Assembly (NCBI GenBank): GCA_025435555.1
Contig: JAIWWG010000087.1
Location: forward strand, 1-64,000
Origin: Chytriomyces cf. hyalinus JEL632
Taxonomy: Eukaryota > Chytridiomycota > Chytridiomycetes > Chytridiales > Chytriomycetaceae
Direction of reading: 5' to 3'
Length of the DNA stretch: 64,000 nt
The position numbers and the translations under genes were made by a program. Every line of letters begins with the position of its first letter. Position 1 is the first letter of the stretch. This document shows, one piece after another, positions 7,464 to 30,091 of this stretch. Under the pieces are notes generated by a model. It was given only the letters and a program-made list of their open reading frames with translations. It made no database searches and had not been told where the DNA came from.

Positions 7464-7631
7464 TTTCTTTAAGATTTACGTTTCATTTCAACACGGTTTA
7501 CTGTTTACTGATCCCCACCCACAGCCACCTGGTGCCAATATAAATCAAAGCACGCAAAACCAAAAAATATCCGAGATTGTTGAATTGCAGGAACCCACAA
7601 ACGCGCACCCACAAGAAAACTGCCGCTGAGA

Positions 7632-8988
7632 TCAAACTTTAGAAGGAAGCAACCTTTCAAAAAAGATACCAGCGACTCTCATGGGAGTGTCGATGGGTTG
7701 CCAGCCAGTATGCTTGTTCAAGAAAGAGGAATGTCCAAATACGACAAAAAATACGTTTGGAATGTCAAGCCAGACACCAAGCATGTGTCTACCAAACAAC
7801 AGGAATTGGTCGCGTTGTGCAACGCTGTCCCCTTCGAACGCGTTTTCAATCCCATCAAGCAAATTAAGACAGTACCGGCAGAATCTGTTGAATCCCGCAA
7901 GAAGTCATAGACCGTCTTGTAATCGTTTGCAAGCATTGAAGGGGGAGTGATGAACATTGGTTCCAGAGCCTCCTTCAAATACGCCAACATGACTACTTGA
8001 AACGAATCTTTAGTCTTCCGCGCTGTTGTAAACTTGACACACATAGTGTGACATCCGCAAAGACTTTCTTCCATTGGGTATCTTCAGTCACGTCCCGCAA
8101 CTCTCGCGATTCGCCAATGTAGTACTTGCCAAAGTCTGCTCAAGCCTTGTAAATTCTCAGCAATTGGAATCATCTGGTCTTTCCCCTCCCCCTCAAACGC
8201 ATTTTTCCATTTGACCAATGACGATAATAGATTGAGATCATATTTCAGCCTTCCATTGGACAAGAGAAGTGATTTCTCGTGATTCGATTTCCATGCCAGA
8301 AATGCCAGGACGAATTCCGAAACATGGGTCTTGAGGAAACCAGCACAAGCACATGGCACAGCCCCTCCGGAGGTGAATCCAGGTAAAAACTCGCCTTCTG
8401 CAATGAGTTCATGACCTGAGAAAACACAACAAAATAAAGATGCAGTTAACAAGATAAGAAAAACGTTCACCTTGAAAAAGGATCCATCCTTCTCTACGCA
8501 GGTGCCTGGGGTACTGTGGAACATGGAACCTTCATCTTCACGTTTTCCGGATCCTTGGCATAACGTGCATTGCTTAGTGCCTCCTTCAAAATTTGAAGTT
8601 CATCTTTCATGAGTCTGCCTGTATCCTTTTTGAAGGTCCTAACAAGCGTGATTCTGTGCGCGTCAACATGTGCCTGAGAAACTTTGTTTTCTGCAAGAAT
8701 GAGCTTCTTGAGTTCACAGACATAATCTGTAGCATTGAATGTGACGGCAAATGACATGAGATAAGGTTCGCTGGCCAGTGCACAAAATACTTTGAAGTAA
8801 AAGTGGTTAGTTGACATATTCGACTTTGTTCGCAGATACTGCTCACCTTGGGTCTCCTTACGCACACAGGCTTCCAGTGGGTACGAAGCTCTCTCTTGCG
8901 TGATCTTGAGTAGAAGCGCCAATGCGAGAGCTGGGATGTGGATCAAAACACTTGTTCCATCATTTTTGGTAACATTTTCCTGTTTCAT
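7632..8988 (-). pseudogene. Crinkler (CRN) gene, broken by frameshifts
   Basis: The pieces align in order with the intact Crinkler at 28107-29737. They are a ubiquitin-like CRN N-terminal domain (starting VFCALAS, with ELKKLILAENK and the DAHRITLVRTF block), a segment VMNS...FYLDSPPE, a middle region, and a C-terminal NTPase-like part with LDGIENAFEGD (Walker-B-like) and NVFFVVFGHSSFLN. The frame changes near 8528, between 8084 and 8074, and near 7850, so no full product is encoded. Upstream of the CRN domain, about 8845-8935, lies a degraded copy of exon 1 of mitochondrial EF-Ts followed by the same gtgagca splice donor. CRN proteins are known from oomycetes and chytrids as intracellular or secreted effectors; this copy is probably dead. 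Confidence 0.75.
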
Positions 8989-25013: not shown

Positions 25014-26065
25014 TCATCCAAGAGTCTCACATGCCTTCAATCCCGCCTGCTGCAGCACCTCTTCGGCAAAATTGCTTTCCTTCACTTCAATTCCTTCGCC
25101 GCAGACATACCTGCTGAATTCAACCACTTTGATGGCGACTCCGTGTTTGGTTCGAAAGTTTTCAAGCACTTGCTCGACAGTTCCTCCGCCCATTAAAAAC
25201 TGCTGTCGATACAGAATTTGCGCTTCGAGTTCTTCGGGTGAGAGTGATGCCATGTCTTTGACGTCCGTGTCTCTCACATAAATGGGATCGAATCCAACAA
25301 CTTGCTGCGCCAACTGCCGTGCCAGTGCCGCAAGCTCTTCTTTCGGTGCATTCATTGCATCCGAGATGGACAATGCCACGACAGCGCCAATACGGCCCAT
25401 CAAATCAGAAGATCCATGCGCAAAAGCTCCATAAACAAGACTCATGGACGGCTTCATTGGCGTCAAAGTCACACGACGCAGTTTCATGTTTTCGCCCATT
25501 TTCGCAATTGCTTCAACAAGAATTGGAGTCACTTTGTTTGCATTGGACCATGTTTTGAGTGACTCTGCATCGCTGCATTCGGAAAACAGCGAGGATCCTG
25601 GGACGGGTTTCACTTCCAATCCTCGTTGTTGTTGAACAATTCCACGGATAGTTGAGACAGCAGATTTGAACCCGTCTGATCTTTGAACAAAATCCGTCTC
25701 ACAGTTGACTTCAACGAGGCCTGCATGCGAGCCGGACGAGAACACGGCAACGAGGCCCTCTTTTGTGGTGCGAGATGCGACTTTTAATGAAGTCTTTGCG
25801 GCGGATGCGAGGAGGGATTCGAGCGCTTTTGTGTAGTCGTTATGGTTTTCTGTGAGTGCTTGGCGTGCTTTTGCGATGGGTGCTGGGGAGTGTGTTGTTT
25901 GTTAAGATACAGGTTGCGTTGCGCCGATGCTTGCTCACCTTGGGTTTCCTTTCGCAGACGTGCCACCAGTTGGGCGAGTGACTCTGCCTTGGGTGCTGTT
26001 GAGTAGAAGCGCAAATGGCTTTGCTGCGATACAGATCGAAGCGCCGATCGGAGAAGACTTGTCAT
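25014..26065 (-). CDS. TSF1: Mitochondrial elongation factor EF-Ts
   Basis: The nucleotide exchange factor for mitochondrial EF-Tu. Exon 1 (25939-26065, 127 nt, 42 codons plus one base) encodes the presequence MTSLLRSALRSVSQQSHLRF and the first helix of the UBA-like domain, LAQLVARLRKETQ. A 56-nt intron follows (donor gtgagca). Exon 2 continues with PIAKARQAL and the TKEGLVAVF block, then the EF-Tu contact region VEVNCETDFVQR. Further on are FVYGAFAHG-like SLVYGAFAHG, GRIGAVVALS, LARQLAQQVVGFDPIYV and EVVEF-like VVEFSRYVCGEGIE. It is complete, ending CETLG-stop. Its first exon is the apparent source of the exon found at the start of the Crinkler copies at 8.9, 27.9 and 29.7 kb. Confidence 0.9.
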
Positions 26066-26160
26066 ATTTTTTGCTCGTTTTTACTGAACTGCCAGCCCCT
26101 CACAACACACCACATTACGCAGGAAGCACGTTGGAAACAGCGACCGCGCTTGAAAAGATC

Positions 26161-26450
26161 TTAAAAATTCAGCTGTTCAAAGTCGCATCTGTCCAAATAG
26201 TGGTCACGTCGCACAGCAGCATTCTTCAAGAACTCGGCATCTCCAAGCACAACGAAGAATACTTTGGCCAAATAAAGCCAGTCACCAAGAATTTTCCTGT
26301 TGAACCACAGAAAGTGGTGTCGTACTTCGTGAATATCACCTTCGAACGCGTTTTCGATTCCGTCTGGCACGATAAAGACTGGCCCGCGACTTTTGTGAAA
26401 TCGTTCAAAAAGTCATCGTTCCTCCTGTAATCGTATAAAGTTTGCATCTT
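26161..26450 (-). pseudogene. 3' fragment of a Crinkler gene
   Basis: Only the C-terminal part remains. It has the sequence before the Walker-B-like site in one frame (YDYRRNDDFLNDFTKVAG), then PDGIENAFEGD, FNRKILGDWLYLAKVFFVVLG and a terminal FEQLNF-stop in another. It matches the ends of the Crinklers at 26626 and 28107. It lies only about 95 bp upstream of the EF-Ts start codon, which places a Crinkler 3' end directly in front of EF-Ts exon 1, the arrangement expected at the breakpoint of the duplications that gave Crinklers an EF-Ts first exon. Confidence 0.7.
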
Positions 26451-26625
26451 AAATGTCCTGGAGCTTCGTTACTGCAGCTGTTGTGTTGCTGGAGCACGTG
26501 CTTTGATGGTTGAGATCAATCAGTACCACAAATGCTGCCGGCAGCCGTCAACGTACTATTGTGCAACCCAGCCTAATTCAGTATACATTGCAGAGACTGG
26601 GAGAGTGATGGAGTGAGACAGTACA

Positions 26626-27987
26626 TTAAAAATTCAAACGTTTGAATTTGTATCCGCCCAGGATGCTGGTAGGTTGCAGTGAAATATCGTTGAAAAAAGA
26701 CGGATGATCCAAAACAACGAAGAATACTTTTGGCAAATAGAGCCAGTTCCCCACAATCTTCTTGCAAAACAAGATAAATCGGTCTTGCCCTTCGAATTCA
26801 TCCCCTTCGAAAGCGTTTCCACTTTCGTCCAGCACAATGTAGACAGGGCCAGCAACATCAGTGAAATCATTTAAGAAATGGGCAACACTTTTGTAGTTTT
26901 TCGTAAGCATTGACGGCGGCATGATAAACATCAGCTTCAGTGCTTGTTTCAAATACGCCAACACGGCAGAATTAAACGAGTCTTGATTCAACACCTCCTT
27001 TCGAAAGTTGACATAGACTGTGTGGCACTAAGCATTTGTTGAAATGGATTTCGTTTCGTCACATCAGGCCACGCCTGTCTTGATATATTGATGTAACGGC
27101 TGCTGATTTCTGATATGTCCTTGTGTGCGCTGTCAGCAATTGGAATCATCCATTCCTGCCCGCTTTTAGACACGGCTCGCTCAAAATTTGCACTTTGAAT
27201 TTTTTGAAGTTTCGCGACAGCCTCTCCTTCATTGACAGAGTTGATTTGTGGTTGGCTGAGAGAAGAGATGCTCGGCATTTCATCTTTCCACTTGAAAACG
27301 TCCGCATACGTTATTGCGCGCGATTTAATTTCAACATCAGCAACGCCATGTTTTGGAGGGGTGCTGGAGGTCCGAGATAACTTGGTCTGTTGCGGGACCG
27401 TGGTACAGATCATCTGGCGCTGAATCCAAGAAGACAGACACATTCCTAATGCTGTTCATGACTTGCAAACACCATTAAAATAATGAGTACGCAGTGACAA
27501 GGGGAAGACAAACAAACGTACCTTGAAAAATACACCCTCCCTTTGTATGCTGGCGCCTGGGGTAGCGCGGAACATGGAAATTTCATCTTTTGCGTCCTCC
27601 GGATCTCTGCCGTATGCCGCTCGACTTGAAAGCTTCTTCCATTTGTCGATATCACGTTTTGTGAATCCTCCGACTCCCTCCTTAAAGACCCTGACGAGCG
27701 CGAGTCTGATTACGTCCACGTGAGCCAGAGCGCTGATGTTCTCTGCAAGAATGGCCTGCTTCAAATTTAAGACAGTGGCTGCAGATTTGATGTTGACTTG
27801 AAGCGCACTGTGATCGGACCTGTTTCCGAGCACGCAGAACACTTTTTTCCGGTGGGCAGTCGGTTACTGCTGCTCACCTCGGACATCGTTGCGCAGACCG
27901 GCTCCCACCTGGGTCAGACACTCTGTCTTGGATGCTGCTGAGTAGAAGCGCAGACGGTAGTGGTCATCGAAACACTAGTCGGAGAAT
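26626..27987 (-). pseudogene. Crinkler gene with EF-Ts-type first exon, broken
   Basis: Exon 1 (about 27884-27987) aligns base by base with EF-Ts exon 1 and has the same gtgagca donor, but contains a TGA in its first 12 codons and length changes. The CRN domain exon is well kept: FCVLGNRSDHSALQVNIKS, LNLKQAILAEN, DVIRLALVRVFKEG, then the conserved FRATPGASIQREGVFFK exon end. The C-terminal exon begins VMNSIRN but shifts frame near 27360 and again near 27020, before the NTPase-like part with PVYIVLDESGNAFEGD and KVFFVVLDHPSFFND. The second Crinkler of the cluster; probably non-functional. Confidence 0.75.
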
Positions 27988-28106
27988 GCCAGGCATTTTA
28001 GGTAAAATCTTCCTCTCGTTTCATCTTCATATATATGTGCCAAAAACAACATTTTCACAACCACCACCAACAAGAGCAGCAACCCCACAAGCAGCAATAA
28101 AGAACA

Positions 28107-29737
28107 CTACCACCAGGATTGATTCTGAACTTGGCTTGGATTCAAACGCTCAAAGCTGAAACTACTGCCTCCCATGGGAGCGACAGGTTTTCGGCCAACA
28201 TTATTAATGAAAGAAGCGCGTCCAAGCACAATAAAAAACACGTTCGGCAACGCAAACCAGTGACTGAGAATTTTCCTGCAAAACAACAGAAACTGGTGTC
28301 GCACTTTCAAGTCATTCCCTTTAAACGCGTTTTCGATTCCGTCAAGTACAATATGGACAGGACCCGCGACTTGTGTTAAATCCTCCAAAAAGTCCTCGAC
28401 AGTCTCATACTCGTTTGAAAGCATTAACGGGGGAGAGATGAACGTTGGTTCCAAAGCGGCTTTCAAGTAATTTATCATTGTAGAGTTGAAGGAGCCTTCA
28501 GTGAAAGGCTGAGTCGTTGTAAACTGGACACGGACAGTGTGACAGCTGCAAAGAGTATATTTGAATGCATCTCGTGTCGTCATGTCCCATGTCTCTTGTG
28601 ATTTACTGATGTAATGCGTGCTGAATTCGGAAAAGCCATGCCCGTTTTCAGCTATTGGAATCACCCAGTCTGCTCCAGTCGTAGCTCGCAGGAAATTTGC
28701 TTGATGGGTTTTTTGAAGTTTCTTAACGGCATCTGTTCCATTGAATATGTTTTGGTGGCTACGCGCAGAGACAATTGGCGTTTCATCCTTCCACTTGATA
28801 TGTTCCATGCAAGTAATTGCTTGTGATTCGAGTTCCATGTTAGACGCGTCAGAACGACTTCTCAAAGAGCCTTGAAGTTGCGCATCTGTTCCATAGAAAA
28901 AGGAGTTGTTTTGATGGTTTCGCGCAGAGACAATTGGCGATTCATCCTTCCACTTGATATGTCGCATGCAAGTCATTGCTTGTGATTCCCCTTCCATGCC
29001 AGAAACGCCAGAATTTGGAGTGGGTTTGGAATCCTTTGGCGCTGTACCCAAAAAGCGTTGAAGCCGGGCAAGTCGAGGCAACTTGCTTTCGTGTGGAAGC
29101 AGGACAAGCACGTGGTACATCTCATCCGGAGTTGCATTCATGTAAAAGCGCGTCTTTTTCTTTGAGTTCATGACCTGAGAAAAACATAAATTGAAAGAGG
29201 GGATGAGGGTTAAGAAAAGAATACCAGCAAACCTTGAAAAACATTTTGTTTTTCTCCAGGCAGGCGCCGCGGGTACGGTGGAATATGGAAACGTCATCTG
29301 TCGCGTTTTCGGGATCGTTGCCGTAACTTGCTTTGCTCAAAGGTTCTTGCCATTTCTGGAGATCATTTTTCGTGAGTGTTCCCTCATTTGTTTTGAAGAT
29401 CCGGACAAGTGTGAGTTTGCATGCATCCACATGACCCAGATCCTTGATCTTCTCTGCACGAATAACCTTCTTGAGTCTTGCGACAGATGCTATGGAATCG
29501 ATTGTGACGTGGAACGCGGGAAGGTCCGGGTGGTTGGCCAGTACACAACGAACTATTTCAAGGGAAATTATGGTTCAACTGAGAGTATTTTGGGGGCGCA
29601 GATGGTTAACCTTGGTTCTCCTTGCGAAAACGAGCTGCAACCTGGGCGAGCGACTCGGTCTTTGGTATTGATGTATCGAAGCGCAGATGGGCGTGCTGGG
29701 ATCTGTGTTGAAAAACGGATCTGAGAAGCCTTGTCAT
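28107..29737 (-). CDS. Crinkler (CRN) protein with EF-Ts-derived mitochondrial leader, intact
   Basis: Three exons: 29611-29737, 29233-29552 and 28107-29174, giving 504 residues with no break. Exon 1 (127 nt, phase 1, identical in length and phase to EF-Ts exon 1) encodes MTRLLRSVFQHRSQHAHLRF and ends RFRKENQ; 25 of its 42 residues equal EF-Ts. Exon 2 is the ubiquitin-like CRN header (VRCVLANHPDLP, ARLKKVIRAEK, DACKLTLVRIFKTNEG). Exon 3 has VMNSKKKTRFYMNATPDE, an internally duplicated block of about 53 residues (each with HIKWKDE[ST]PIVSAR), and an NTPase-like end with PVHIVLDGIENAF (Walker-B-like) and NVFFIVLGRASF (sensor-like). I see no clear Walker A. Family knowledge says CRNs are modular effectors; a mitochondrial destination is inferred from the leader. 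Confidence 0.8.
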
Positions 29738-30091
29738 ATTTTCATATTTTTTTTTTTTTTTCAGCTTTGCTTGGGTTCCATCTTCACTCCTGCAAACGGA
29801 CGTGACCCCTGAATGCCACCGAGAATCTATCCCGATTTCTGGCGCTTGGTTCCATCTCTGACCCCTGAAATTCCAACAAACCCTGCCTATAAAACTTGTT
29901 GATGTAGTTGCTACTGATCTCTGACTTGAAGCCGTATGCATTGTCCGCAATTGGATTCATCCATTCTTACCCCAGCTTTCGAAACGGCTCGTTCAAATTA
30001 TGCGTCAGGACATGGCACAAAGCTTGTCATATTTCCTTCAAATTTCTTATTTCTTGTACTTCAAAACAATAGTTGCATTGTTCTGAAACCA

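Follow-up and report, generated by a model that had tools for sequence, protein, structure and literature searches.

Crinkler genes in a 64,000-nt stretch of Chytriomyces cf. hyalinus JEL632 (contig JAIWWG010000087.1, positions 1 to 64,000; hereafter the window) begin with a copy of the first exon of the neighbouring gene for mitochondrial EF-Ts. The window is part of a contig of 130,041 bp (here C229) in the 37.8-Mb JEL632 assembly. The first exons are homologous, EF-Ts is their donor, clear copies occur only in EF-Ts-bearing segments among the loci scanned, the leader is present in C. hyalinus proteins encoded near EF-Ts, and the header of one open gene, Crinkler A, depends on the start codon of the leader. 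Capture of EF-Ts exon 1 by Crinklers, which an earlier note on this DNA had proposed, is strongly supported by DNA alignment scores, a genome search, outgroup EF-Ts sequences and C. hyalinus gene models. These comparisons indicate a real and old exon capture that is seen in two taxa. The account preferred here, with a probability of about 0.72, is that EF-Ts exon 1 was captured through tandem duplication, that the leader spread over further Crinkler copies and that the product would be imported into mitochondria.

Along the minus strand, in order of falling coordinates, lie a Crinkler remnant, Crinkler A, Crinkler B, a Crinkler 3' fragment and EF-Ts. The donor gene and Crinkler A have the following parts.

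25939..26065, minus: EF-Ts exon 1, 127 nt with a phase 1 end; mitochondrial leader and first residues of the N-terminal domain
25883..25938, minus: EF-Ts intron 1, 56 nt, GTGAGC...CAG
25014..25882, minus: EF-Ts exon 2, PF00889
29611..29737, minus: Crinkler A exon 1, 127 nt (42 codons and 1 nt), open; captured EF-Ts leader
29553..29610, minus: Crinkler A intron 1, predicted, 58 nt, GTTAAC...TAG
29233..29552, minus: Crinkler A exon 2, PF20147 header; sole in-frame Met near its end
29175..29232, minus: Crinkler A intron 2, predicted, 58 nt; a C. hyalinus protein (P0001) reads across the equivalent junction
28107..29174, minus: Crinkler A exon 3, body with stop included and HVLVLLP motif

The two first exons, with splicing as predicted, are homologous in DNA, equal in length at 127 nt and in phase (phase 1), and share 25 of 42 residues, which reproduces the earlier note. 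The DNA alignment of EF-Ts with leader A has 106/150 matches and a score of 60, against a maximum of 14 among shuffles (200 for each leader). Two further, decayed leaders had been placed near 27.9 kb (leader B) and 8.9 kb (leader D), both followed by GTGAGCA, and both were recovered, with 66/87 matches and a score of 45 (shuffle maximum 14) for B and 103/148 and 50 (shuffle maximum 13) for D. The intron start GTGAGCA of B and D is that of EF-Ts, while Crinkler A has GTTAAC. The copies other than A are broken in the window, and stops or frame breaks affect most Crinkler copies of the three segments described below.

27878..27996, minus: leader B, decayed, EF-Ts-like; GTGAGCA follows
26629..27845, minus: Crinkler B header and body, frame broken; relative of C. 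hyalinus proteins P0004 and P0005
26161..26432, minus: Crinkler 3' fragment; body 26432-26164, stop 26163-26161
29823..30011, minus: internal Crinkler remnant, upstream of leader A
8847..8963, minus: leader D, decayed, EF-Ts-like, start approximate; GTGAGCA follows
7620..8793, minus: Crinkler D header and body, broken; best matches are to C. hyalinus protein P0002

The direction of transfer was read from EF-Ts itself, whose PF00889 domain is recognized in the window with an E value of 2.6e-22. Across 12 aligned chytrid EF-Ts proteins the last third of the exon 1 product is EF-Ts sequence, with R38, E40 and T41 invariant and S29, L33, A35, L37 and K39 nearly invariant; these are protein sequences, which show residues and not the exon boundary. 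In Rhizoclosmatium and Chytriomyces sp. MP71 the string SLAQLVA.LRKET belongs to EF-Ts, and close forms are found in Obelidium and others. Since other chytrid genera conserve the end of exon 1 as part of EF-Ts, EF-Ts is the donor of the leader exon, and the reverse direction, with a Crinkler as donor and EF-Ts as recipient, is ruled out. The captured piece accordingly comprises the presequence and the first residues of the EF-Ts N-terminal domain.

Crinkler A is open in all three exons, and the exon lengths give junctions of phase 1 and phase 0; its splicing is predicted from the sequence. The PF20147 header in exon 2 scores 34 bits (cut-off 24.6), and the HVLVLLP of exon 3 corresponds to the HVLVVVP-type motif that closes the N-terminal region. 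By eye, the stretch LTLVRIFK has a loose likeness to the LxLFLAK motif. The exon 3 piece matched no Pfam family, and its best match to a solved structure had an E value of 0.16; within it (28988-28730, minus strand) the stretch ESQA.TCM.HIKWKDE.PIVSAR occurs twice, at 28988 and 28829, and once in P0001. The frame ahead of the header contains a stop and then no ATG, and exon 2 has a sole Met, at residue 103 of 106. Since there is no earlier in-frame ATG before the header, a header-bearing Crinkler A protein started from an AUG needs exon 1. Of the product that the earlier note predicted, a CRN protein with a mitochondrial leader, the header is recovered and delivery to mitochondria is a reading of the sequence alone.

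The spread of the leader was investigated in the whole assembly. The window region has diverged copies at C192:60-90 kb and C5:22-42 kb, with main blocks 82 to 93 % identical, and each of the three segments (C229, C192 and C5) has one EF-Ts gene. These three diverged copies of part of the window suggest hybrid or polyploid ancestry or old segmental copies. The C5 segment lacks a stretch matching 27843-29816, and C5 32217-35677 holds about 3.4 kb extra between EF-Ts and the Crinkler 3' fragment.

When the EF-Ts leader peptide was searched against the genome in six frames, six matches had E<=1, all within the three segments: the EF-Ts genes of C229, C192 and C5, and three Crinkler leaders, namely A in C229, its C192 counterpart (78.07 kb) and a C192 leader at 75.2 kb. 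Genome DNA searches with either exon as query did not find the other exon. Upstream regions were then scanned with two queries at 24 distinct Crinkler header loci, which remained from 37 rows after duplicates and second gene parts were dropped. The leader exceeded all 200 shuffles at four loci (A, B, D and A in C192), all in EF-Ts-bearing segments, and did not at the other 20. Three loci lay above 95 % of the 200 shuffles and below the maximum: X on C5 with both queries, and C192:119207 and C188 with one query each; only X was counted, on its DNA support. Two of the 20 loci, both in the C5 segment, still show degenerate traces of the leader in their DNA (49/72 and 22/26; scores 22 and 18, shuffle maxima 15). 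Eighteen of the 24 loci lie outside the EF-Ts segments, four of these elsewhere on C192; 11 of the 18 have an in-frame ATG at the header, three an out-of-frame ATG and four a match that falls short of the start. Eight loci with a related body (C222 is also among the 24) gave no gene-strand leader match at E<=0.01. A leader on every Crinkler of the genome is ruled out for the loci scanned (20 of 24 without a clear leader). By the searches made, the leader is found around one locus only; the search for further leader-bearing Crinklers that the earlier note had called for added the copies in C192 and C5.

The leader is also present in C. hyalinus proteins. A protein search with Crinkler A exon 3 gave seven relatives, six from C. 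hyalinus and one from JEL632, of which four have the header (P0001, P0002, P0004 and P0005; PF20147 at 31.3 to 46.6 bits). P0001 starts with MPSLLRPVLRCTSQHTHLRFYTVASKAESL and P0004 with MSLLRSMFQRSSQHTRWRFYSTATKKTESL, both EF-Ts-like leaders whose scores none of 5000 shuffles reached. P0002 retains the 3' part of the leader (16/5000 shuffles), and P0005 begins within the last leader residues (253/5000 shuffles, uninformative alone). A profile search with the four C. hyalinus Crinklers gave five proteins, all from C. hyalinus, among the 8000 candidates sharing most words. The EF-Ts protein P0009 is HDU78_007194, with P0001 and P0005 being HDU78_007195 and 007196; EF-Ts P0010 is HDU80_000106 and P0004 is HDU80_000104. 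EF-Ts is thus one locus tag from P0001 and two from P0004, and equal contig sizes together with the tags suggest that P0009, P0001 and P0005 lie on one contig and P0010 and P0004 on another. The tag order HDU78_007194-007196 reads EF-Ts, A type, B type, and the window reads EF-Ts, B, A; if locus tags follow contig order, the array has been reordered between the taxa.

A tree of the headers placed A, its C192 copy and P0001 in one group (support 100/97) and B, its C5 copy, P0004 and P0005 in another (98/96); D, X and P0002 were unresolved. Because genes of the A type, and likewise those of the B type, group across the two taxa in this tree, leader-bearing A and B types predate the split between JEL632 and C. 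hyalinus, which makes the capture old.

Tandem duplication is the likeliest route. The mitochondrial EF-Ts gene would have had a Crinkler immediately upstream in the same orientation, and a duplication running from the Crinkler start into EF-Ts intron 1 would have left EF-Ts whole while placing its exon 1, with start codon, leader and splice donor, before a Crinkler header. The Crinkler's original ATG would have been lost and an acceptor close behind it taken into use. Before the C. hyalinus lineages parted, further tandem copies would have carried the leader onto A- and B-type and probably also D-type Crinklers; most copies would later have decayed, with A remaining open. The distance from a Crinkler stop to the next ATG is 95 nt for EF-Ts, as the earlier note had measured for the 3' fragment, 110 nt for leader B and 91 nt for leader X, and this spacing fits a tandem unit that begins at the Crinkler start and ends in EF-Ts intron 1. 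Some 20 nt ahead of the ATG look common (aaacgag..aaaatat), so that the proposed transfer of the EF-Ts promoter is visible over this distance and no further. B, D and X have a further short insertion before the start, which leader A does not. Intergenic similarity of EF-Ts to X was equalled by 11/2000 shuffles, or 24/2000 without the part adjoining the ATG. In D and X the acceptor lies within AAAG/TN, and Crinklers such as that of C188 read K-I-F-C close behind their ATG; the AAAG/TN site may be the old Crinkler start region.

Several results weigh against this account, and are given here and with the alternatives below. With the donor left out, and with the C5 EF-Ts intron cut to 56 nt though it is longer, intron similarity to EF-Ts was not significant for A, B or X (958-1405, 984-1244 and 332-1733 of 2000 shuffles) and borderline at most for D (32-354) and the C192 copy of B (84-140). 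Intron homology as proof of the breakpoint was not achieved, being borderline in two of five copies and absent in three. Of the earlier proposal of tandem duplication with an intron breakpoint, the spacing is in agreement and the intron lends little statistical support; likewise, in the nucleotide-level comparison including the intron start that it recommended, exon similarity was upheld and intron similarity was wanting for A, B and X. Intergenic similarity between EF-Ts and B was absent (556/2000 shuffles as good), and D and X have an in-frame ATG inside the supposed intron. Since the peptide search missed two decayed leaders in the window itself, B and D, it may also have passed over such copies elsewhere.

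The captured leader may now be a mere spliced 5' end that gives a start codon and expression, with a product that is not imported. This is rather unlikely, and the evolution of leader A bears on it from both sides. Compared with the EF-Ts exons, leader A has 34-40 differences in 126 bases, with dN 0.23-0.28, dS 0.76-1.08 and dN/dS 0.26-0.31. Among 20,000 neutral simulations started from the C5 EF-Ts exon, 6.2 % remained open, with the ATG kept and the first 20 residues free of acidic ones, and 4.5 % of open simulations retained at least the residue identity observed for leader A (P=0.045), so that its identity to EF-Ts is somewhat above neutral expectation. These tests are lenient because part of the divergence fell on the constrained EF-Ts branch. 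Differences from C5 EF-Ts by codon position are 11/8/15 for leader A, a skew that is not significant (P=0.13), and the truncated C192 copy of B is equally skewed (12/9/16, P=0.13). Other EF-Ts genes give 3/0/8 and 5/0/8, B 13/9/10, D 12/13/9, X 14/11/11 and A in C192 14/14/17. Codon-position skew fails as proof of selection on leader A, given the equal skew of the truncated copy. Between JEL632 A and P0001 the leader is identical at 23/39 residues, compared with 88/106 (83 %) in the header and 225/293 (77 %) in the body, and the EF-Ts leaders of JEL632 and C. hyalinus are identical at 35/42.

Relaxed evolution of leader A, as the non-import alternative would have it, is also seen in its amphipathicity, which is no better than that of shuffles (helical moment 0.48, P=0.41), and in the reading RFDT in place of RFY. 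The moments of P0001 and P0004 are 0.61 (P=0.047) and 0.52 (P=0.26), and those of the window EF-Ts and EF-Ts P0009 are 0.66 (P=0.019) and 0.55 (P=0.13); the test is weak because P0009, itself a C. hyalinus EF-Ts leader, fails it. The leaders of P0001 and P0004 are a few codons shorter than that of EF-Ts near the end, which may be an artefact of the gene models. Against non-import, acidic residues are missing from the first 20 positions of the A, P0001 and P0004 leaders, whose first 25 residues hold four, three and five Arg or Lys and one, no and no acidic residue, respectively. RFY followed by S or T, which we take to be an R-3 type cleavage pattern, is present in the three JEL632 EF-Ts copies and is kept in P0001 and P0004. 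These comparisons give weak indications of selection on the Crinkler leader, which is probably used but relaxed.

That the leaders arose by separate captures, or by gene conversion from EF-Ts, at different times is unlikely. On the header tree, leader presence needs two changes, one forced by the C5 copy of B, which has no clear leader. Support for the Crinkler leaders as a single group is weak (63/83), and the absence from leader A of the pre-start insertion common to B, D and X would also suit separate events. In contrast, at the position of QQS in EF-Ts the leaders of A, A-type P0001 and B-type P0004 all read QH[A/T] (D reads QLS and the C192 copy of B reads QNT), and in both taxa the two types are old.

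It is quite improbable that all copies, A included, are pseudogenes of a dead array in which the leader has no present role. The decay of most segment copies would agree with this, as would the public protein models searched, which gave no JEL632 model of Crinkler A while JEL632 models were found for EF-Ts and for a C192 fragment. However, A is open across three exons, and P0001, annotated at full length, could hardly have kept its header and body identity to A if the array were long dead. Chance or convergent likeness between two ordinary mitochondrial presequences, which do have a common composition, is ruled out and next to impossible, as the DNA match scores far above shuffles and spans the whole exon including the conserved end that belongs to the EF-Ts domain, and the genome search at E<=1 gave no other presequence. 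The contrary results on selection, introns and the peptide search do not alter these odds, since none of them underlies the capture itself.

A Crinkler subfamily re-addressed to the fungus's own mitochondria by this capture is a possibility that we hold at somewhat less than even. If so, Crinklers could be retained for work inside the producing cell and not only as exported effectors, for example against mitochondrial parasites or in organelle quality control. An organelle-leader Crinkler kept in two Chytriomyces taxa offers a direct test of an intracellular role. Exon shuffling can also be read here with unusual clarity, since the donor exon is still present together with several recipient genes, decayed copies and three diverged versions of the locus.

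Two other features of the window were noted. Several open frames on the minus strand at 31-46 kb have common NGLAKRT and YR(V/I)I-YF stretches and form an apparent expanded family. A KDZ transposase (PF18758, E=5.3e-14) is encoded at 52111-50276 on the minus strand, with an upstream open frame at 52977-52087; the whole spans 52977-50276.

These genes resemble the CRN family in a PF20147 header above the Pfam cut-off, in HVLVLLP, akin to the HVLVVVP motif given in PMC5289972, and in their tandem and broken copies; tandem duplication, pseudogenes and shuffling of N- and C-terminal parts are reported for the CRNs of P. sojae (PMC3726527). They differ in that an exon of a mitochondrial housekeeping gene precedes the header. 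CRNs were in the older view given a signal peptide and in a later view a Ubl header without one, with the host nucleus as destination (PMC5289972); the string "mitochondri" is absent from that review. CRN-like genes are known from Batrachochytrium, Homolaphlyctis and Spizellomyces, only two with predicted signal peptides, and in the available portions of that account chytrid Crinklers have no ascribed function (PMC5364385). The JEL632 genes are likewise chytrid Crinklers, with N-terminal motifs that differ from those described there, where the same portions leave an organelle leader unmentioned. Among the titles and abstract openings listed by searches of open-licence papers, none describes a Crinkler with a captured organelle leader. 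What appears new here is the combination of known leader-exon shuffling with a known Crinkler family, the function being a prediction. Plant rps11 and plant cytochrome c1 are known examples of leader capture by exon duplication or shuffling (cited in PMC2031878), and in those genes, as in JEL632, the ready mitochondrial leader of one nuclear gene was copied onto another. Unlike the plant examples, the recipient here is an effector-type Crinkler, and the donor and its recipients still adjoin.

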